Assembly: GCA_023431055.1 (NCBI GenBank)
Contig: JAEYXX010000138.1
Span: forward strand, 1-47,093
DNA length: 47,093 nt
Direction: 5' to 3'
Origin: Pseudomonadota bacterium
Lineage (GTDB): Bacteria; Pseudomonadota; Gammaproteobacteria; Pseudomonadales; Pseudomonadaceae
The position numbers and the translations under genes are program-made. The notes under the pieces are model-generated. The model searched no databases. It had not been told where the DNA came from and saw nothing but the letters and a program-made list of their open reading frames with translations. This document shows positions 37,806-46,751 of the stretch, piece after piece; position 1 is the stretch's first letter, and each line of letters starts with the position of its first letter.

Positions 37806-38045
37806 ATGCCAACGCCCAACCACCCAGCCCTGCCCCTGTGCTGCCAACTGGCGGCACAGCCCGAGCGCACCTTGTTTGCGTTCTGGCTCGACGCCTTGCT
37901 CACTGATCCGGCGCGAGAGTTCCGCCGTAATGCTGAGTTGATCCTCAAAGGCATGCTCTGCGGCTACACCGAGATTGGTCTGATCGACAACAACCAGCGC
38001 AGGGCGATGAGCAATGAACTGACTGCCTTCGGAGCCACCGTATGA
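37806..38045 (+). CDS. Hypothetical early protein
   Basis: 79 aa, MPTPNHPALPLCCQLAAQPERTLFAFWLDALLTDPAREFRRNAELILKG. No family recognised. It is coupled to the primase-helicase gene by an ATGA overlap, which hints at a replication-related role, without direct evidence. Confidence 0.7.
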   Translation: MPTPNHPALPLCCQLAAQPERTLFAFWLDALLTDPAREFRRNAELILKGMLCGYTEIGLIDNNQRRAMSNELTAFGATV

Positions 38046-40897
38046 GCACCATGCACGCCTCCCTGCGCGACGACGTGCTCAAGCGCCTGCGCGACGAGTT
38101 CCCCGACCTCAAGCCCGTCCGTGGCACCAAATACATGCGCAAGGGCAAGTGCCCGGCCTGCGGCAAGCCGGAGCTGTACACCTTCACCGACTCGCCCTGG
38201 CTGCTGATCTGCGGCCGTGGCAAGTGCGGCGCGCAGTACCACGTCAAGGATCGTTACGACGATCTGTTCAACGACTGGAGCGAGCGCGTACCGTCCACCG
38301 ACCAGCAGCCCAACGCCACCGCCCGCGCCTACCTGGAGTTCGCCCGCGGCTTCCGCCTGGAGCTGATCGAGGGCTGGTTTACCCAGGAGAATTTCTGGTC
38401 CCGCGAGCTCAGCGCCGGCAGCGCCACCGTGCGTTTCCCGCTCACCAAGGGCGGCTACTGGGAAAGGTTGATCGACAGGCCCGAACGCTTCGGCAAGCAG
38501 AAGGCCCGCTTTGCCCCTGGCGCCAGCTACAAGGGCGTGTGGTGGTGCCCGCCCTCGATCGACCCGACCCAGGTCAGCGAGCTGCACATCGTCGAGGGCA
38601 TCTTCGACGCCATCGCCTTGCTGCATCACAACGTGCCGGCCGTCTCGGCCATGAGCTGCAACGCCTTCCCCGAGCAATCGCTGCGCGAGCTCAAGCAAGC
38701 CTGCGTCGACGCCGACCGCCGCCTGCCCACCCTGGTGTGGGCGCTGGACAACGAGCCAGTGGCGCGCAGCTACACCCGCAAGTGGGTGGCCCAGGCCCGC
38801 GCCATGGGCTTCACCTGCGAAGCCGCGCTGATCCCGCAGAAGGGCAAGAAGGTCGATTGGAACGACCTGCACCAGCGCTGGGCCTTTATCGACGACGCCG
38901 AACAGCGCGCCGAGCGCGTAGCCGCCGACCTGGACGAAGCCCGCTACCAGGGCGCCCTGCTGATCGCCGAGAACGCCAGCGAGAAAGGCTTGCTGATCTA
39001 CCAGCGCAACGAGTGGCGCGAGTTTCACTTCGGCTTCGACAACCGCATGTACTGGTGGTCGCTCGATATGGGCGAGTACAACAAGGCACGGCAGGCAATC
39101 GAGAGCGACGAGAACGGCGAACACCGCGAGCTGAGCAACGCGCAGATCCGTGAGAAGGCACTGCGCATGTCCAACAGCGTGGTGGAAATCGCCAACTGCT
39201 ACTTCGAGGCCTTGTACTTCCAGCGCAACGAGATTACCGACGAATCCTGGTACTACCTGCGCGTGGACTTCCCCCACGGCGCGCCGAGTGTGAAGAACAC
39301 CTTCACCGCCACCCACATCGCCGCCGCCAGCGAGTTCAAGAAGCGCCTGCTGGGCATGGCTGCCGGCGCCATGTACACCGGTACCGGCCAGCAGCTCGAA
39401 AAGATCATGAAGCTGCAGACCTACGGCATCAAAACCGTCGAGACGATTGATTTCGTCGGCTACAGCCGCGACCACGGCTGCTACGTGTTCGGCGATATCG
39501 CGGTGAGAGACGGCCAGGTCTACGAGGCCAACGCCGAGGACTATTTCGAGTTCGGCAAACTGCGCATCAAAACCCTGCAAAAGGGCGTCACCATCCGCCC
39601 CAGCCGCGACGCCAAGGCCTACAGCAGCGAGTGGTTCAAGCTGCTGTGGACGTGCTTCGGCGCTCAGGGCGCTGTGGCCCTGGTGTGGTTTTTCGGCTCG
39701 CTGTTCTGTGAGCAAATCCGCGCGCGCTGGCAGTCCTACCCCTTCCTGGAGGCAACGGGCGAGGCCGGCGCCGGTAAAACCACCCTGCTCAACCTGCTGT
39801 GGAAGTTGCTGGGCCGCGCCGGCTATGAAGGCTTCGACCCGATGAAGTCCACCAAAGCGGGCAGATCGCGCCTGATGGGCCAGGTGGCGGGCATGCCCGT
39901 GGTGTATCTGGAGGCCGACCGCCACAGCGACGATAAGCCCCACGCCAAGACTTTCGAGTGGGACGAGCTGAAAGACTTCTTCGGCGGCGGCACCCTGGCC
40001 ACCAAGGGCGTGAAAACAGCGGGCAACGAGACCTATGAGCCGCCCTTTCGCGGCACCATCGCCATCAGCCAGAACGCCGCCGTAGTCGCGCATGAAGCGA
40101 TCATGACGCGCATCTGCAAGCTGCATTTCGTGCGCCCCCAGGTCACGCCCGAGAGCCGCGCAGCGGCAGACAAACTCAACGCCCTGGACGGCGACATGCT
40201 CAGCCACTTCCTGCTGCTGGCCATCAAGGCCGAAGCCGGCGTGCTGGATGCCTTCGCCGAATACTTCCCCGGCTATGAATCGCGCCTGCGCCGCCTGCAC
40301 ACCCACTGCTGGCAGTGCGAAACGCCCTACGCCACGGCCAACGAAAGCCACGCCTGCCCCAGCTGCGGCAACACGCTGCGCGGCTACATCCGCGTCGAGC
40401 GCATCAGCAAGAACCACGCAATGCTGCTGGCCCTGCTGCACTGCCTGCGCCAGGTGGTGCCGATCAGCGACGCCCAGGTCAGCGCCACGCAACGGCAGAT
40501 CATCACCATGGCCCTGGAGCGCCAAGCCTCGATCAGCGCCGACCACCAGCACGTCGCCGAGTTCTGGGAAGTGTTCGACTTCCTGGAGGGCCTGGACGGC
40601 GAAGGCCCGGTGGTCAACCACAGCAACAAGCCCGAGACCGGCGAAATCGCCATCAACCTCAACGACTTCTACGAACGCGCCCAGGAGCACAAGCAAAAGC
40701 TGCCGGACATCAACGTGCTGCGCGACCTGCTCAAAGAAAGCCGCTCGCGCAAGTTCGTCGAGGCCAACGTCGCCGTGGCCAGCGCCGTGCGCAAGCACCA
40801 GGCCAGGCGCGCCAACCTCACCGTCTTCAAGTCCCCCACCGTCAAGTGCTGGATCTTCCAGCAGCAACCCACCGCTGGCTCGGCAAAGCCGGCATAA
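38042..40897 (+). CDS. Toprim primase-helicase fusion
   Basis: 951 aa replication protein. A zinc ribbon (Cys37, Cys40, Cys57, Cys62) opens a primase part; a toprim core follows (HIVEGIFDAIAL about 182-193, then WALDNE about 232-237). A P-loop ATPase of helicase type has Walker A GEAGAGKTT at 573-581 and Walker B MPVVYLEADRH. A second ribbon (Cys756, Cys759, Cys773, Cys776) sits in the C-terminal part. P2 gpA is instead a rolling-circle nickase; no HUH motif is seen here, so replication is probably by primed theta-type initiation. The last codons form the first CGGCAA hairpin. Confidence 0.85.
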   Translation: MSTMHASLRDDVLKRLRDEFPDLKPVRGTKYMRKGKCPACGKPELYTFTDSPWLLICGRGKCGAQYHVKDRYDDLFNDWSERVPSTDQQPNATARAYLEFARGFRLELIEGWFTQENFWSRELSAGSATVRFPLTKGGYWERLIDRPERFGKQKARFAPGASYKGVWWCPPSIDPTQVSELHIVEGIFDAIALLHHNVPAVSAMSCNAFPEQSLRELKQACVDADRRLPTLVWALDNEPVARSYTRKWVAQARAMGFTCEAALIPQKGKKVDWNDLHQRWAFIDDAEQRAERVAADLDEARYQGALLIAENASEKGLLIYQRNEWREFHFGFDNRMYWWSLDMGEYNKARQAIESDENGEHRELSNAQIREKALRMSNSVVEIANCYFEALYFQRNEITDESWYYLRVDFPHGAPSVKNTFTATHIAAASEFKKRLLGMAAGAMYTGTGQQLEKIMKLQTYGIKTVETIDFVGYSRDHGCYVFGDIAVRDGQVYEANAEDYFEFGKLRIKTLQKGVTIRPSRDAKAYSSEWFKLLWTCFGAQGAVALVWFFGSLFCEQIRARWQSYPFLEATGEAGAGKTTLLNLLWKLLGRAGYEGFDPMKSTKAGRSRLMGQVAGMPVVYLEADRHSDDKPHAKTFEWDELKDFFGGGTLATKGVKTAGNETYEPPFRGTIAISQNAAVVAHEAIMTRICKLHFVRPQVTPESRAAADKLNALDGDMLSHFLLLAIKAEAGVLDAFAEYFPGYESRLRRLHTHCWQCETPYATANESHACPSCGNTLRGYIRVERISKNHAMLLALLHCLRQVVPISDAQVSATQRQIITMALERQASISADHQHVAEFWEVFDFLEGLDGEGPVVNHSNKPETGEIAINLNDFYERAQEHKQKLPDINVLRDLLKESRSRKFVEANVAVASAVRKHQARRANLTVFKSPTVKCWIFQQQPTAGSAKPA

Positions 40898-40918
40898 CCC
40901 CGAAGGAGAACCACCATG
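40875..40918 (+). promoter_or_regulatory. CGGCAA hairpin/start element, copy 1
   Basis: CTGGCT (40875-40880), CGGCAA loop (40881-40886), AGCCGG (40887-40892), then the shared block CCGAAGGAGAACCACCATG ending in the start codon of the small membrane protein gene. The stem lies in the last codons of the primase-helicase gene. It is the weakest of the four stems (6 bp with one G-U). Confidence 0.65.
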
Positions 40919-41041
40919 CAAATCGACCACGAACCCCGCGTAGACAAGGCCATCACCCTGCTCGGCAGCGGCCTGGCGCTCGTTGCGCTGTTCACGCTGT
41001 GCAGCTTCGCCCCGGAAGCGCTGCTCGCCATCACCCACTGA
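40916..41041 (+). CDS. Small single-span membrane protein
   Basis: 41 aa, MQIDHEPRVDKAITLLGSGLALVALFTLCSFAPEALLAITH. One hydrophobic stretch (about 13-38). A short gene, but the ideal AAGGAG at 7 nt and the same leader as three other genes support it. Function unknown. Confidence 0.65.
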   Translation: MQIDHEPRVDKAITLLGSGLALVALFTLCSFAPEALLAITH

Positions 41042-41048
41042 CCCAACC

Positions 41049-41100
41049 GCCCAGGCGCGGCAACGCCTGGGCAACCCACCCCCGAAGGAGAACCACCATG
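41049..41100 (+). promoter_or_regulatory. CGGCAA hairpin/start element, copy 2
   Basis: GCCCAGGCG (41049-41057), CGGCAA loop (41058-41063), CGCCTGGGC (41064-41072): a perfect 9-bp stem. It is followed by AACCCACC and CCCGAAGGAGAACCACCATG ending at the ATG of the ATPase gene. Confidence 0.75.
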
Positions 41101-41922
41101 CAGAACACCAACCAAACCCCGAAATGGCTCGACCTGTTCATCACCGCGTTCGGCACCCAGGGCCTGATCGCCCTCGCCTGGTGGGCCGGTGCCTTCCACG
41201 CCCAGCGCGTCCGCGAACTGCAGGCCACCTACCCCATCCTGCAGATCACCGGCGGCGCCGGCGTGGGCAAGTCCACGCTGGTGGCCAACCTGTGGAAGAT
41301 GGCCGGCAGCGAGGGCGAGAGCCGCAACGCTGACAGCTGCAGCATGGGCGCCTTGCTCGCCTTCCTCGTCCGCGCCATCAATCGCCCCGTGGTGGTGGAA
41401 GAGAACAACCACGGCGGCGAGTGCTTCGATTGGGGAGTCCTGCGCCAGTGCTACGACGGAGCCGTGCTCCCCGTGCGCGTCAGCGGCACCGACGAAACGG
41501 TCAACACCTTCACCTTCCAGGGCGCGCTGGCATTCGTCGGCGGCGAAACCGAGGTGCTCAATCGCCGCATCGTGAATATCCACCTGGTGCGCCAACCGCG
41601 TACCGATGGCCACCGCTCCGCGGTCGATGCACTGCATGAACTGCCCATCACCGATATGTGCCAGTTCGTCGAGGCGGTGCGTATGAACCGCGAACAGGTG
41701 GTTTACCGCCTCGGCCACGTCCCGGCCTACGCCGAGAGCCTGCGCAAAGAGACGGCGCCAGGCCTGCACCACGGCATTGCCCGCAACCACGCACAGCTGC
41801 TCGCCCTGCTCGATCTGCTGGCCGACCTGTTCCACATCCCCGCCGACGCCCTGCACCACGCTCACACCGAGGTGTGCGGCATGGCCTGGGTGCATGCGGA
41901 TAGCAAGGGAGCGCAGGCATGA
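41098..41922 (+). CDS. P-loop ATPase, paralogue of the primase-helicase ATPase domain
   Basis: 274 aa. Walker A GGAGVGKST at 52-60, Walker B-like RPVVVEENN at 96-104. The first 70 residues align with the primase-helicase around its P-loop: both have FG-x-QG-x2-AL-x-W-x2-G, YP-x-L, TG-x-AG-x-GK-x-T-L and LWK in register. It therefore looks like a duplicated helicase domain that lost the primase part. It may form mixed rings with the large protein or regulate it. Confidence 0.75.
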   Translation: MQNTNQTPKWLDLFITAFGTQGLIALAWWAGAFHAQRVRELQATYPILQITGGAGVGKSTLVANLWKMAGSEGESRNADSCSMGALLAFLVRAINRPVVVEENNHGGECFDWGVLRQCYDGAVLPVRVSGTDETVNTFTFQGALAFVGGETEVLNRRIVNIHLVRQPRTDGHRSAVDALHELPITDMCQFVEAVRMNREQVVYRLGHVPAYAESLRKETAPGLHHGIARNHAQLLALLDLLADLFHIPADALHHAHTEVCGMAWVHADSKGAQA

Positions 41923-42233
41923 GCAACGAACTCACCTGCACCGTCACCGAGCGCGGCTTCCCCTACATCAGCTTTGAAGACCGCTACGGCGAAAGCTGCT
42001 CCCTGCAGATCAGCAGCCTGGCCGGCGAGCAAGTGCATTGCTGGTTTGGCGTCACCAACCCATCCGTCCAGGTCATGGAGCAAGGCAAGGGCTGGCAGCC
42101 CGTAGCACTGCCAAAAGGCGCCCTGATCAACAGCCGCATGCACCTGAGCCAGGACCAGGTGCGCGCCTTGCTGCCGCACCTGCAGGCCTTCGCAGAAACC
42201 GGCGAGTTCGCCTTCGACCCTCTCACCTGCTGA
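41919..42233 (+). CDS. Hypothetical early protein
   Basis: 104 aa, MSNELTCTVTERGFPYISFEDRYGESCSLQISSLAGEQVHCWFGV, mostly beta at the N-terminus and helical at the C-terminus (HLSQDQVRALLPHLQAFAETGEF). No family recognised. Translationally coupled to the ATPase gene by ATGA. Confidence 0.7.
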   Translation: MSNELTCTVTERGFPYISFEDRYGESCSLQISSLAGEQVHCWFGVTNPSVQVMEQGKGWQPVALPKGALINSRMHLSQDQVRALLPHLQAFAETGEFAFDPLTC

Positions 42234-42244
42234 CCCAACCCAGC

Positions 42245-42293
42245 CCCGCCGAGCGGCAACTCGGCGGGACTGCCCCGAAGGAGAACCACCATG
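42245..42293 (+). promoter_or_regulatory. CGGCAA hairpin/start element, copy 3
   Basis: CCCGCCGAG (42245-42253), CGGCAA loop (42254-42259), CTCGGCGGG (42260-42268): a perfect 9-bp stem of different sequence from copy 2, with the same loop. It is followed by ACTGCC and CCGAAGGAGAACCACCATG. Confidence 0.75.
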
Positions 42294-43250
42294 CACCTAC
42301 AACCCCACCACCGCTGGCCGCTACTGGCCATGGTCGCCGCCCTGGCGGGCGTCACGGCCACATCGGTGGCCATGGCCATCGCCGCGCTGATCGACGCGCC
42401 AGTGCTCGCCGCACTGTTCGCCGCCGCCGCCGTGGTGCTGGACCTGTTCAAGTACGCCGCCTGGCCGTTGGCCCTGATGCTGCTGGCAGCCCGCCGCACC
42501 CTGGCCGCGCTGCTGATGATGGCCAGCGCCCTGGCCCTGGGCGCCGTTTCCGGCTGGGCCACCTACGACCGGCTGATGACCTCGATCATCACCAGCCAGG
42601 CCGAGCACCAGGCGCACACAGAACAACGTCAGGCCGACCTGCTGGAGCTGCGCCAGGCCGACGCCGCCCGCATCGAGCAGCTCGACGCCGAAGCCGCCGC
42701 CGTCCATCACCAGGCCAACGCCCTGCGCGAACGCGGCATGGTCACCCGCGCCCTGGAGCTGGAGGCCGCCGCCCTCGCCCGCATCGACACCCTGCGCGCC
42801 ACCGCCCAGCAGCGCCGCGACAGCGCATCGCAAGAGCTCACCGCCCTGCGCAGCAAGCCGGCCAAGGCCGCAGGCCTACCCCAGGCGCTGGCCACCCTGC
42901 TGTGCATCGGCTTCGCCCTGGCGCTGGAGGTAGTGCCGGCGCTGATTCTCTGCGCGCTGCGCCCCGCACCCGTTACCGAAACCGCCCGCGCTACTGCACC
43001 GGCACGCCAGAAACACGCCGAGGAACGCACTCAGGAACAACCGGAAACCGAGCCGGAAACGCCAGCAGGCCCAGACCTGCCCGCCGAACTGCTGCAACTG
43101 ATCGCCCGCACCGAAAGCGGCGCCAAGCTGGCCGTGCGGCAGGTCGCGCGGGAATTGAGAATGGGCAGCGAGAGAACCACCCGACTGATGCAGCAGGCCA
43201 CAGAAGCGGGCCTGCTGAGCAAGACCGCCGCCGGCTACGTGGCGGCATAA
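42291..43250 (+). CDS. Membrane protein with coiled coil and winged-helix-like C-terminus
   Basis: 319 aa. Hydrophobic segments at about 9-32, 36-55, 60-66 and 71-89 are followed by a coiled coil (about 100-185, HQAHTEQRQADLLELRQADAARIEQL), another membrane span (about 197-218), a Pro/Glu-rich linker, and a C-terminal winged-helix-like piece (AVRQVARELRMGSERTTRLMQQATEAGLL). It could tether phage or host DNA to the inner membrane. No known family assigned. Confidence 0.7.
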   Translation: MHLQPHHRWPLLAMVAALAGVTATSVAMAIAALIDAPVLAALFAAAAVVLDLFKYAAWPLALMLLAARRTLAALLMMASALALGAVSGWATYDRLMTSIITSQAEHQAHTEQRQADLLELRQADAARIEQLDAEAAAVHHQANALRERGMVTRALELEAAALARIDTLRATAQQRRDSASQELTALRSKPAKAAGLPQALATLLCIGFALALEVVPALILCALRPAPVTETARATAPARQKHAEERTQEQPETEPETPAGPDLPAELLQLIARTESGAKLAVRQVARELRMGSERTTRLMQQATEAGLLSKTAAGYVAA

Positions 43251-43254
43251 AAAA

Positions 43255-43310
43255 GCCCCGGTGAGCGGCAACTCACCAGGGCCAACCAACCCCGAAGGAG
43301 AACCACCATG
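43255..43310 (+). promoter_or_regulatory. CGGCAA hairpin/start element, copy 4
   Basis: GCCCCGGTGAG (43255-43265), CGGCAA loop (43266-43271), CTCACCAGGGC (43272-43282): 6 bp, one C-A mismatch, then 4 bp. It is followed by CAACCAACC and CCGAAGGAGAACCACCATG. Confidence 0.75.
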
Positions 43311-44141
43311 CAAGCAGAACCCAAAGAAGTCAGCGTCGATAAGGCTAACACGCCAGCCGAACAAGCACTGCGCCCTGCAAATGGAAAAGCGCGACGCTTT
43401 CTCGTAAGGCTTAAAGACCTGAACGCGCTGGGCAGCCTCGCAGAGGGAGAACCCGGCGTCTGCCTTGTGCCAGCTGCTGACCATGACTACGTCCTGACAC
43501 AGCTTCTTGCAGAGCAACGTCGTAACCGCACCATGGCGCATGAGGCAAAGCCGAGTCGCGCAGATGCACTTGTGCCGTGCGGCGAATGCCACGAAGGCCT
43601 GCAGATGATCGACCCCTACGACGGCGGCACATTCATCACCTGCAGCCGCTGCAACGGGCGCGGCATGCTCACCACATGCCCTATGTGCTTCGGCGCAGTG
43701 CCGGCTGATCGAGCGCACCTGCTGGAAAGTGAGCAAGCCGCCAACCAGTGGACGAACAACAAACCGAACGAACCAGGTGCCTATTGGGTGCGCGGCTTCC
43801 GTATCGGGGAACCGGACTCCCGACCGGCTCTGGTCGAAGTGGCCATCAACGAAAACGGCACGTTGCTGTGCAACATGAACGACAGCAACACCAACGACGA
43901 CCTGCGCGAATGGTCATTCGTCGAAGACCTGGCCGAGCGCTTCGAGTGGCTCGGCCCGCTTGGCCTGACCGTCGCGGGGGAGGGTTCAACCAGAGAACGC
44001 GAGCTATCCCACGCACTTGACCTGGCAATTCGCTCGCTCGACCAGTTGGTCCCCTACCTGGGCAAGGTGCCGGCTGATGTTGGCTTGCTGAATGAAGCGC
44101 TGATGGCAGGTCGCAAGGCACTGCAAGGCGGTGCCGTATGA
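43308..44141 (+). CDS. Protein with DnaJ-like cysteine-rich zinc motif
   Basis: 277 aa. The middle (about 90-130) has three CxxC units, CGECHEG, CSRCNGRG and CPMCFG, like part of the DnaJ zinc centre. The N-terminus (about 30-70, RFLVRLKDLNALGSLAEGEPG) and the C-terminal helical part show no family I know; NKPNEPGAYWVRGFRIGEPDSRPALVEVAI resembles phage proteins of unknown role. AAGGAG at 7 nt before the ATG. Confidence 0.7.
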   Translation: MQAEPKEVSVDKANTPAEQALRPANGKARRFLVRLKDLNALGSLAEGEPGVCLVPAADHDYVLTQLLAEQRRNRTMAHEAKPSRADALVPCGECHEGLQMIDPYDGGTFITCSRCNGRGMLTTCPMCFGAVPADRAHLLESEQAANQWTNNKPNEPGAYWVRGFRIGEPDSRPALVEVAINENGTLLCNMNDSNTNDDLREWSFVEDLAERFEWLGPLGLTVAGEGSTRERELSHALDLAIRSLDQLVPYLGKVPADVGLLNEALMAGRKALQGGAV

Positions 44142-44413
44142 CCTGCGCAGGAACCAAGCTGCGGCAGCGCTTCCTGGAGCGCATGCAGCAAGTCGCTATC
44201 GGCGCCCAGCTGGAGCGCAAGGGCCGCGTGTGGCGGGTCATGAAGCAACAGCGCACCGAAACTGGCGTTGTGCTTCAGCTTCGCCATGGTCGCCACGACT
44301 TCCGCCTTTATGTCCCGGTGACCCTGGACGGCCCGGAGCTGTGGCACGCCGAGTTCCGCTCGAAAGCCCTGCCGCCAACTCAACGCGAGATGTTCGCCGG
44401 AGGTGTCCAATGA
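44138..44413 (+). CDS. Hypothetical early protein
   Basis: 91 aa, basic (MTCAGTKLRQRFLERMQQVAIGAQLERKGRVWRVMKQQR), with a beta-rich middle (GVVLQLRHGRHDFRLYVPVTLDG). No family recognised. Coupled to both neighbours by ATGA overlaps. Confidence 0.7.
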   Translation: MTCAGTKLRQRFLERMQQVAIGAQLERKGRVWRVMKQQRTETGVVLQLRHGRHDFRLYVPVTLDGPELWHAEFRSKALPPTQREMFAGGVQ

Positions 44414-44616
44414 CTCGCGCACGCCCAACCCTCGCCAGCCACCGCCTGGTGCTGCCCAACATCTGCGACATCTGCGGCCGCGCTCGCTCGGCCGGCAAGC
44501 ACGCCAAATGCAGCCGCATCCGCCAGCAAACCAAGCAGGCCGAGTGGGCCACATTCATGGCCGAACAAGCCGCCAAACGCCAAGCCAAACAGGAGCGCCG
44601 CCGCTATGGCCGTTGA
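44410..44616 (+). CDS. Small zinc-finger-like basic protein
   Basis: 68 aa. CDICGRARSAGKHAKCS (about 19-35) is a short treble-clef/zinc-ribbon-like motif; the rest is basic and helical (AAKRQAKQERRRYGR), suited to nucleic-acid binding. Overlaps the previous and the next gene. Confidence 0.7.
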   Translation: MTRARPTLASHRLVLPNICDICGRARSAGKHAKCSRIRQQTKQAEWATFMAEQAAKRQAKQERRRYGR

Positions 44617-44839
44617 AATCCGCTGCCGCTACGCCACCGGCACCTACGTGGCCACCGTCAAAGGCGAGAAGCGCACCGCCAGCAACACCATCAGCGCCCG
44701 CCACGCCGCCGAAGCCATGGCCGTCAAACTCGGCCTCGACCCGGCCCACCTGGTGGAGAAAGAACGCGACCTGATCGACCCGAAAGACCGCGTCGTCTTC
44801 ATCCATCCAGGAGAGCGGCAGGAGGTGGGCCATGGCTGA
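44606..44839 (+). CDS. Hypothetical early protein
   Basis: 77 aa, MAVEIRCRYATGTYVATVKGEKRTASNTISARHAAEAMAVKLG. A beta-hairpin then helix pattern like small double-stranded-RNA-binding-type folds (beta-beta-alpha), but I cannot assign it. CAGGAGCG precedes the ATG inside the upstream gene. Confidence 0.65.
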   Translation: MAVEIRCRYATGTYVATVKGEKRTASNTISARHAAEAMAVKLGLDPAHLVEKERDLIDPKDRVVFIHPGERQEVGHG

Positions 44840-45026
44840 CCAGGCCGACCGCCAGCACATGCACGAATGCGAGGCGCGCCACTGGCTGCGCCTCGGCTAC
44901 ACCACCGAGGCCATGGTCGACGAGCTGCGCGAGAAGATCACCACCAAGCGCGGCGCCGCTGCCGCCGAGCGGCTGATCGAGGAAATGCGCCGGCAGTGGC
45001 GGCGGCGTGGCGAATGGCTTACCTGA
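44832..45026 (+). CDS. Hypothetical early protein
   Basis: 64 aa, MADQADRQHMHECEARHWLRLGYTTEAMVDELREKITTKRG, helical and basic at the C-terminus (EEMRRQWRRRGEW). No family recognised. GGCAGGAGGT lies directly upstream of the ATG. Last of the small overlapping early genes before the integrase. Confidence 0.7.
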   Translation: MADQADRQHMHECEARHWLRLGYTTEAMVDELREKITTKRGAAAAERLIEEMRRQWRRRGEWLT

Positions 45027-45048
45027 CAAGAATCAGCCGCTGCAACTT

Positions 45049-45096
45049 CTCGGCCCCAATGTGGGCCGAGCTTATTTCCGGCCCATACACTGGGCC
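45049..45096 (+). promoter_or_regulatory. Tandem hairpins in the integrase leader
   Basis: CTCGGCCC (45049-45056)/GGGCCGAG (45063-45070), followed by CTTATTT, and GGCCCA (45080-45085)/TGGGCC (45091-45096), followed by TTTCGTT. Both sit in the 93-nt gap before the integrase, so the early transcript may be attenuated there. The GGCCC and GGGCC arms of the two could also pair with each other. Confidence 0.5.
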
Positions 45097-45119
45097 TTTC
45101 GTTGTGCCGGAGGGCGCAG

Positions 45120-46286
45120 ATGGCAAAGGGTGTAGAGGTACGCGGCAACCGCGTGCGTGTGTATTTCCGGTATCAGGGCGAACTGTGCCGCGAGCCGTTC
45201 AACGGCGACGCCACGCCCGAAAACATCGCCCAGGCCGAGCGCCTGGTCGGCATGATCGAGTACGAAATCAAGGCAGGCACATTCAGCTATGCCCGCCACT
45301 TCCCCGACTCGCCCAGGGTGAAAACCAACACCCTGGGCCACTACATGGACCTGTGGCTAGAGATCAAACGCAACGAAATGGCGCCGTCCGGCTTCCGCAC
45401 CTACAAGAGCAAGGTCGAGACGCACATCCGCCCGCGCTGGGGCGATGAACAGGCCGACGCCATCGACCACCTGCACCTGCAGGCGTGGGTGCACAAGACG
45501 CTGATGCCGTCCCTGCATAACCGCACCGTGCGCGAGATTGTCAGCCTGGTGAAACAGGTCTTCACCCTGTACCGCGCGCGCAACCGCTCGGCGCACGACC
45601 CGACCGAGGGCATCACCATCCGCCAGCCCGACCCGGACGAGGTCGACCCGTTCACCCGCGAGGAAATCGACGCAATCCTCAGCACGCCTACGGACAAGAT
45701 CCAGGAGCTGCTGCTCGCTCAGTTCATGCTGTGGACGGGGCCGAGGGTGTCCGAGGCCATCGCGCTGGCCTGGGAAGACGTCGACCTCAAGGCCGGCACG
45801 GTGAGGTTCCGCCGCGGCCAAGTGCGTGGCGTGTACAAGGTGACGAAGAACAGACGGTCAAACCGCGAGGTGCGCTTGCTCAAGCCTGCGCTCCAGGCGC
45901 TGCACGCGATGGCCATCCATACGCAGAAGCTCAAGCCGGTGGAAGTCGAAGTGCTCGACCGGGACAACAAGACCAGGAAGCGCCAAGCGCTGCGGTTCGT
46001 GTTCCATTGCACCAGCACGGGTGCAGCGCACAGCAGTTCCGACATGCTGCTCAAGGGATTCTGGCGCCCGCACCTGGCAGCAGCCGACGTGCGGTACCGG
46101 GGGCCGAACAACTGCCGCCACACCTACGCCAGCCAGCTGCTCACCACCGGCGCCGTCACGCTGCAGTGGCTCAAGGATCAGATGGGCCACACCACCATTG
46201 CCATGCTTGAACGCCATTACGGCAAGTACATCAGCAAGGACGGCCCGGACATGATCCCCTTGCTGGAGCACGCCCTAAAGCTCTGA
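45120..46286 (+). CDS. int: Tyrosine-family site-specific integrase
   Basis: 388 aa phage integrase. The N-terminal arm-binding part resembles DUF3596 (about 1-60, VRGNRVRVYFRYQGELCREPF), followed by a core-binding SAM-like domain (about 70-155) and the catalytic domain. Arg209 (TGPRVSEA), a Lys near 243, Arg333 (NNCRHTYASQL), His357 (MGHTTI) and Tyr367 (RHYGKY) fit the active site. The first His of the HxxR box is replaced by Asn330, which some integrases tolerate. The start at 45120 follows GGAGGG. It reads toward attR, 133 nt away. Confidence 0.93.
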   Translation: MAKGVEVRGNRVRVYFRYQGELCREPFNGDATPENIAQAERLVGMIEYEIKAGTFSYARHFPDSPRVKTNTLGHYMDLWLEIKRNEMAPSGFRTYKSKVETHIRPRWGDEQADAIDHLHLQAWVHKTLMPSLHNRTVREIVSLVKQVFTLYRARNRSAHDPTEGITIRQPDPDEVDPFTREEIDAILSTPTDKIQELLLAQFMLWTGPRVSEAIALAWEDVDLKAGTVRFRRGQVRGVYKVTKNRRSNREVRLLKPALQALHAMAIHTQKLKPVEVEVLDRDNKTRKRQALRFVFHCTSTGAAHSSSDMLLKGFWRPHLAAADVRYRGPNNCRHTYASQLLTTGAVTLQWLKDQMGHTTIAMLERHYGKYISKDGPDMIPLLEHALKL

Positions 46287-46305
46287 ATCCAGGCCCAGAA
46301 ACGAC

Positions 46306-46418: not shown

Positions 46419-46445
46419 ATGGTGCGGACGGAGAGACTCGAACTC
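46419..46445. other. attR core (27-bp direct repeat)
   Basis: Identical to 11190-11216. The phage-supplied copy restores the CCA end, acceptor strand and T arm of tRNA-Leu, so the tRNA gene stays whole. Confidence 0.9.
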
Positions 46446-46504
46446 TCACACCTTGCGGCGCCAGAACCTAAATCTGGTGTGTCTACCAATTTCACCACGT
46501 CCGC
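46420..46504 (-). tRNA. tRNA-Leu (UAG)
   Basis: An 85-nt tRNA with encoded CCA. Acceptor GCGGACG pairs with CGTCCGC, the anticodon loop TTTAGGT gives UAG, and a class II variable arm follows. Its 3' end is the phage att core, the usual target for this kind of integrase. It is the last of three co-directional tRNA genes. Confidence 0.95.
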
Positions 46505-46560
46505 GTGGTTTGAAGCTTAAAACAAAAACGCCAGGCTTTTTGGCCTGGCGTTCTGGAATA

Positions 46561-46636
46561 TGGGGTGGACGATGGGAATCGAACCCACGACACCAGGAGC
46601 CACAATCCTGTGCTCTACCAACTGAGCTACGCCCAC
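46561..46636 (-). tRNA. tRNA-His (GUG)
   Basis: 76 nt with encoded CCA. Anticodon loop TTGTGGC gives GUG. The extra G at -1 typical of tRNA-His is encoded at 46637 and can pair with C73. Confidence 0.95.
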
Positions 46637-46674
46637 CATATTGCATTGCTTACTCAAATTGCCTGACCGCCAAA

Positions 46675-46751
46675 TGGCGCACCCGGCAGGACTCGAACCT
46701 GCGACCATCCGCTTAGAAGGCGGATGCTCTATCCAGCTGAGCTACGGGCGC
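46675..46751 (-). tRNA. tRNA-Arg (UCU)
   Basis: 77 nt with encoded CCA. Acceptor GCGCCCG/CGGGTGC pairs, anticodon loop CTTCTAA gives UCU. First tRNA of the operon. Confidence 0.95.

Follow-up and report, generated by a model that had tools for sequence, protein, structure and literature searches.

The gp43 proteins of phages T4 and RB69 act through an autoregulatory operator of gene 43, which consists of a hairpin 5′ of the start and a sequence overlapping the ribosome site, and whose loop contains a -UAAC- common to T4 and RB69 and -UAAA- in RB49. The leader of T4 gene 32, bound by gp32, contains a pseudoknot and A+U-rich repeats and serves a single gene, while RegA of the T4-related phages is a phage-encoded translational repressor of many mRNAs, with sites of variable sequence and without RNA structure (all three as described in the accessible part of PMC3014915). 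In the cluster K mycobacteriophages, the SAS is a short multi-copy repeat that covers the ribosome site of several gene families in the non-structural half of the genome and is conserved at positions outside the pairing with the rRNA. About half of the copies have an inverted repeat just upstream (ESAS), whose arms have consensus sequences; its authors find little support for a hairpin and think DNA-binding sites more likely (PMC3203893, accessible part). Here we analyse an element carried in four copies by a 47,093-nucleotide stretch of Pseudomonadaceae DNA (contig JAEYXX010000138.1 of assembly GCA_023431055.1; the whole stretch is hereafter the window): a hairpin with a CGGCAA hexaloop that precedes an identical Shine-Dalgarno/start block. 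This is almost certainly a conserved RNA element of translation initiation. We propose, with more reserve, that it is probably a cis-acting element of translation initiation, present in several copies in the replication operon of P2-like Pseudomonas phages and controlled via a trans-acting reader.

The window contains exactly four copies of AAGGAGAACCACCATG, on the + strand, at 40903, 41085, 42278 and 43295 (two further sites resemble it with three mismatches), and the arrangement CGGCAA-N8-38-AAGGAGAACCACC is found four times, versus none in each of 100 shuffles. The loops start at 40881, 41058, 42254 and 43266, on uninterrupted stems of 7 (one G-U), 9, 9 and 6 pairs, and end 16, 21, 18 and 23 nt ahead of AAGGAG. 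Hairpin 1 (GCTGGCT-[CGGCAA]-AGCCGGC, 40874..40893, + strand, as for all that follow) lies inside the 3′ end of the primase gene, and its block, AAGGAGAACCACC-ATG-CA (40903..40920), starts a 41-aa protein. Hairpins 2 (GCCCAGGCG-[CGGCAA]-CGCCTGGGC, 41049..41072) and 3 (CCCGCCGAG-[CGGCAA]-CTCGGCGGG, 42245..42268) are both present in the minimum-energy fold, and their blocks (41085..41102 and 42278..42295) start a 274-aa ATPase and a 319-aa protein, respectively. In its predicted fold, hairpin 4 (GGTGAG-[CGGCAA]-CTCACC, 43260..43277) continues downward into a GCCC/GGGC helix, and its block (43295..43312) starts a 277-aa protein. The original prediction, made from the letters of the window, had reported four such hairpins before one identical block, and this is confirmed, as are its two perfect 9-bp stems and, by the distances above, its spacing of 16-24 nt; the first stem, which it gave as CTGGCT, has to be corrected to the seven pairs above.

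A covariance model built from 59 elements, the four of the window among them (R2), recovered these four with E-values of 8e-12 to 1e-14, no other match in the window being better than 0.07. Element 1 (40872-40920) scored 54.9 bits (E 7.8e-12) and elements 2, 3 and 4 scored 67 (E 1e-14), 61.9 (E 1.6e-13) and 61.8 bits (E 1.7e-13), each of these copies being in the model. At curated scores, Rfam (release 15) recognised only three tRNAs in the whole window, and over the elements its best match was below threshold and on the - strand (NsiR1, 24.1 bits versus 39 needed); as far as Rfam goes, this supports the original statement that no named element like it was known. We found no description of it in the literature searched, where subscription journals were thinly covered, nor in the accessible parts of PMC7366521, PMC3014915 and PMC2864571.

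Relatives were collected with the primase gene as anchor, namely the best 80 of 333 stretches of viral contigs with a primase relative (53-97% identical) and ten GenBank phage stretches with primase relatives (Dobby and nine more). When five of six inner pairs and a Shine-Dalgarno-ATG were demanded, 71 of 91 loci (the window, L080-L167, L016 and L032) carried at least one element. For the analysis of covariation we took, in the window and L080-L167, every C[G/T]GCAA with a Shine-Dalgarno-ATG 6-45 nt downstream; no pairing condition was set and chance sites were included, giving 67 distinct 24-nt hairpins from 113 sites. In this set 79.1% of cells are paired versus 52.7% after shuffling, and the covariation score is 0.536 versus 0.138, a value reached by none of 500 shuffles, although this test is inflated by relatedness. 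A control that retains relatedness, sliding the partner by 1-3 columns, gave scores of only 0.04-0.14. Two-sided changes are present at all nine stem pairs (C-G 31, A-U 17, G-C 11 and U-A 2 at the second pair), a measure that alone says little since 98 of 500 shuffles also reach nine; such changes are also seen among the hairpins before one gene family, pre-filtered for four of five inner pairs. The original prediction had named two outcomes that would speak against it, relatives that lose loop and pairing and keep the ribosome site, and a recently duplicated spacer without compensatory changes. Neither was seen: Dobby retains the loop and the pairing with a different Shine-Dalgarno block, and compensatory changes are abundant.

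The hairpins are also tied to start sites. A scan of both strands of 89 primase-bearing loci (1,064,493 bases), with no start-site condition and at least six Watson-Crick pairs, returned 98 distinct C[G/T]GCAA hairpins, every one of them on the coding strand and before a ribosome site and a start (96 ATG, 2 GTG). What comes next is a standard Shine-Dalgarno and ATG for 89 hairpins, a variant site and ATG, e.g. CGGAGAAGCACCATG or AAGGAAAAGCACCATG, for seven, and a Shine-Dalgarno and GTG for two (L109, L128). Taken from the other side, of the 137 distinct AAGGAGAANCACCATG starts 124 are preceded by the hairpin with at least five of six pairs, and the other 13 include eight with four of six pairs and two whose loop, on a good stem, differs by one base (CGGCTA, CGGCGA). 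An exact-pattern search of species genomes gave 38 stretches, none with a stem of four or more pairs, which indicates that the block alone is a ribosome site used by many bacteria. Conserved pairing, the restriction to one strand and the junction to starts together show that the element acts as RNA, in line with the earlier proposal that loop and pairing are conserved and stem sequence is not. The data exclude or strongly disfavour chance, recent duplication, a plain ribosome site, a terminator and a DNA priming site.

The strand and start-site data bear directly on two of the rival explanations. A single-strand DNA site, e.g. a priming site for the phage primase in lagging-strand synthesis, would suit the clustering of the hairpins by the primase gene and their conserved loop, and CTG, a primase trinucleotide, is contained in CTGCAA; there is no reason, however, why a priming site should lie on the coding strand in 98 of 98 cases, joined to a ribosome site and a start, and we hold this explanation to be extremely improbable. 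A boxB-like antitermination site or a terminator between genes is also very improbable: boxB does join a conserved loop to variable stems, but several copies per operon are unlike nut sites, and here every copy is fixed to a start site. A T run follows hairpin 4 in the - strand reading only, and none of 13 terminator-like sites detected in the region 37900-46300 corresponds to these hairpins on the + strand. Intrinsic termination was rejected for the four hairpins, none of which has a T run on that strand. Read on the - strand, hairpin 4 (43254-43283) tops the list of terminator-like sites (13 found versus 8.9 expected from shuffles) and may end transcripts coming from the other direction.

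The element has four parts: a stem, about 6-9 bp long, whose sequence is largely free; the hexaloop; a spacer rich in C and A (49% C, 28% A, 17% G, 6% T) and mostly 4-20 nt long; and the fixed block AAGGAGAANCNNC-ATG-CA. The loop, identical in the four copies of the window as first claimed, is not so in the relatives, where it is C[G/T]GCAA, that is, CGGCAA or CTGCAA. Among hexaloops with at least five pairs near 605 distinct Shine-Dalgarno-ATG sites, CGGCAA was counted 126 times (of 159 occurrences) and CTGCAA 17 times (of 34), the next commonest reaching five. A scan with an open loop, in which GCAA and one block version were fixed, found at least 215 distinct sites in 117 of 120 stretches; among the matches listed, the 164 paired sites comprise 97 CG, 66 CT and one CA, so that 163 have C[G/T]GCAA. 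The conserved unit, drawn at first from the loop to the ATG, stands but extends beyond the start codon: of 153 distinct elements 138 have CAx as their second codon, versus 76 of 249 other starts of the primase-bearing loci, a control that may itself contain degenerate elements. Block variants end in ACCACC, AGCACC, AACGAC or GACACC, and in L146 the loop stands on an 8-bp stem before a quite different ribosome site. A second CGGCAA occurs in some leaders (L093, L095, L119, L133), overlapping the 3′ arm of the hairpin or directly after it.

Predicted folding gave a less sharp picture. Hairpins 2-4 all form in the minimum-energy fold and have pair probabilities of 0.97-1.0, and their leaders are only moderately better than shuffles in fold energy (z -1.3 to -1.7), while that of hairpin 1 is no better (z 0.77); the strong evidence for the element is therefore comparative and not energetic. 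In the leaders of the window the Shine-Dalgarno lies outside the hairpin, which hence need not block the start by itself. It is unpaired in all four centroid folds, and some of its bases, above all the GG, are in weak short helices in the minimum-energy folds; the predicted folds do not tell an on from an off state. The element might be a passive initiation aid working without a trans factor, which would insulate the start from upstream coding RNA, mark a standby site beside its spacer, or protect or process the message between genes. The C/A-rich spacer, the position of the Shine-Dalgarno and the presence of one strong hairpin before each start all agree with this. Yet an insulator or stabiliser needs no particular loop, and the loop is C[G/T]GCAA in all but one of the paired sites listed above and uniform in each genome (see below), which makes a passive role rather unlikely.

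In the 58 multi-copy loci, the copies of a locus share one loop, CGGCAA or CTGCAA, in 58 cases and one Shine-Dalgarno-to-ATG block in 51, whereas the stem arms are the same in none. A second collection, overlapping the first in some of its contigs, has one loop type in 76 of 77 loci among the matches listed. The same gene families have either loop according to the genome (32 with CGGCAA and 14 with CTGCAA for the last-slot family, nine and four for the ATPase family). On the primase tree we count about five G/T loop changes (fast tree, 47 loci), and the T label requires at least eight gains or losses when set against all other rows, element-less loci included (85 rows). Loop and ribosome site thus change together per genome while the stems diverge, a pattern expected of a shared reader. 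Short gene-boundary repeats serving module exchange, and kept alike by gene conversion, could also produce uniform blocks and loops within genomes, the same kind of leader before unrelated gene families, and a last slot that precedes many different protein domains. Such a recombination linker needs no pairing, yet two-sided changes are found at every stem pair, and homogenisation is at odds with arms that differ within each genome. As a full explanation it is quite improbable; the element may have a linker role in addition to the translational one.

We return to a trans-acting reader, favoured because the arrangement of a conserved-loop hairpin and a fixed ribosome-site sequence matches the described T4 gp43 operator. 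Specificity seems to be read in trans, since the copies of one genome share the loop and mostly the block while their stems differ, and would have been switched several times. It appears reasonably probable that a trans factor reads the element. This factor, probably a protein, would recognise the loop together with the ribosome-site block, and the element-bearing starts would be controlled as one set. As a guess, it might repress by covering the Shine-Dalgarno, as with T4 gp43, or instead recruit or position the ribosome. That the factor is phage-encoded is possible, and we put it forward with less conviction. A phage RNA regulon can be imagined on a similarly tentative footing, in which one phage-encoded RNA-binding factor reads a loop-plus-ribosome-site code common to the early genes of the set, code and factor have been switched together several times, and captured genes join by acquiring the leader.

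Several observations weigh against this proposal. In the window, hairpin 1 is not favoured, a competing CGGC/GCCG hairpin being preferred (the CGGCAA stem has a probability of about 0.26), and the Shine-Dalgarno is not freely open, as, averaged over its six bases, the probability of being unpaired is 0.58-0.66 in the ensemble. Three of the 137 AAGGAGAANCACCATG starts lack such a hairpin (L085, L101, L113), only three of the ten GenBank phage stretches with a related primase carry the element (Dobby, Sirocco and OQ658368), and the last-slot hairpin of more distant phages has other loops. The coupling between loop and block is not strict, AAGGAGAAGCACC being found with either loop. Uniformity of the loop within genomes could also stem from whole-module exchange or inheritance, and many of the loci are near copies, so that 58 loci are not 58 independent cases. 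Furthermore, no binding partner was found by gene content, gene trees, structure models or antisense search. No gene family is specific to 47 element-bearing loci as against 10 others: besides the primase, two early families are present in 47 of 47, but also in three of 10. No tree of a conserved gene follows the loop cleanly, with three to six changes in families of at least 25 loci; two smaller gene clusters show two loop changes, and one of these is a tail-region ORF by its position. AlphaFold models of two conserved upstream proteins, phrog_3967 and phrog_3461 (mean pLDDT 92.3 and 80.5), matched no PDB fold better than E 0.89, and a sequence search with the phrog_3461 family gave one weak match in the PDB (E 0.0052). 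In nine loci searched for antisense copies of the block none stood out; the best candidate, one 13-mer in the window with two mismatches, is about at chance level by our own estimate. Kissing between the loop and the start (UGCA with AUGCA) was set aside by reasoning, as the common CGGCAA loop breaks it.

The element is spread over a group of Pseudomonas prophages. We surveyed genomes with the full-element model at E 1e-5 and scored 19-29 candidates per genome, so that absence is not firm. Matches were obtained in at least 33 of 298 genomes of a genus sample (the genus of G001, the Pseudomonas genome holding L067), 26 of these 33 having two to five, and in at least three of 194 genomes of an order sample and one of 274 of a class sample; G164 belongs to both the class and order samples and G333 to both the order and genus samples. 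A second type of hairpin stands before the last-slot gene, one per locus, in L097 (9185), L098 (9165), L108 (9635), L118 (9193), L161 (8104) and L164 (8994), all six without a C[G/T]GCAA element or nearly so. Its inner stem, GAGGAG/CTCCCC, contains an A-C mismatch, its outer pairs covary as judged by eye, and its loops are TTCGTAC, TTGCAC, TTACAG or TAGCCG; AGGCTACCAC lies downstream in five of the six loci (all but L108). Phages phi3 and UFJF_PfPro also have this type. The same inner stem also occurs in some multi-copy phages, there with CTGCAA or CGGCAA, and the last-slot hairpin may predate the C[G/T]GCAA loop.

At its right end the window holds the early region of a prophage, with a CII-like regulator, an AntA-type antirepressor, a primase-helicase and a tyrosine integrase. 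The primase-helicase gene (38042-40897, + strand; Toprim_2, phrog_1139 DNA primase) lies directly 5′ of the element cluster, and its nearest named relatives are in Pseudomonas aeruginosa phages, e.g. Dobby (Peduoviridae, Citexvirus; 59%). The four genes that follow an element, all on the + strand, had received labels that proved loose. The first (start 40916) encodes the 41-aa protein, membrane-type by eye. The ATPase gene (41098-41922) has a match (E 5.6e-38) to positions 505-777 of phrog_1139, the helicase part of the family of the adjacent primase, and, judging from this similarity, is likely a partial paralogue or duplicate of that part. The third (start 42291) encodes the 319-aa protein with apparent membrane and coiled-coil stretches, again by eye, and the fourth (start 43308) the 277-aa protein, which has the N-terminal tag MQAEPKEVSVDKANT, no PHROG match and only a sub-threshold Pfam match. 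A gene at 41919, located among these starts, is without such a leader. Three tRNA genes lie beside the integrase gene (46423-46751, - strand), likely the attachment side of the prophage.

Downstream of the last element stands a gene with a conserved N-terminal tag, MQ(A/V)..PxEVSxxKATT or a variant (43308-43352 in the window; 40 distinct examples among the collected loci), to which many different protein domains are joined (26-277 aa). Near codons 12-15 of the tag the DNA itself is conserved (AGGCTACCAC), with the Ala codon GCT in 40 of 40. In a search of both strands of 89 loci, AGGCTA[C/A]CAC was present a single time in 52 and never twice, and phages lacking the C[G/T]GCAA loop have it too. 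This region has the look of a cassette junction or of a cargo slot carrying a tag.

How does the element compare with the known systems? For CsrA/RsmA, sites are hairpin loops near the Shine-Dalgarno and GGA is needed in the loop, which the C[G/T]GCAA found here does not contain; the AAGGA of the Shine-Dalgarno may itself be a weak site. Alleles of csrA do occur in Pseudomonas plasmids and phages (PMC7366521, accessible part). The T4 gp43 operator is the most similar in its working and the SAS is the closest described feature, but both differ from the element in important features. Like the gp43 operator as described in the available text, the element lies in a phage replication region and combines a conserved-loop hairpin with a sequence over the ribosome site; unlike it, with its one gene and known ligand, the element often has two to five copies before different genes, another loop and a putative ligand, and none of the four copies of the window precedes the primase's own start. 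As with the SAS, the repeat covers the ribosome site in many copies and several gene families. In the ESAS, however, the arms follow a consensus, whereas here arm sequence is free, pairing is conserved, and the arms covary and are uniform in no multi-copy locus; judged from the two consensus sequences, moreover, the SAS consensus GGGATAGGAGCCC differs from the block found here. The T4 gene 32 leader shares the order of a structured element, an unstructured leader and a ribosome site, and differs by its pseudoknot, its A+U-rich repeats and its single gene. RegA acts on many different mRNAs, as the proposed reader would; its sites are described as unstructured and variable, whereas structure and loop are conserved here.

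The analysis makes a testable claim, namely that a group of Pseudomonas prophages which is widespread has a trans-acting reader, and the two loops and several blocks offer a natural experiment for finding it. The leader also marks the early accessory genes of these phages, most of which have no known function. Among the systems covered by the accessible part of PMC3014915, the structured phage operators, those of T4 gp43 and gp32, each serve one gene, and RegA, which represses many, has sites without structure; here, a single structured element is found ahead of as many as five genes in a phage and, within each genome, changes as a unit.

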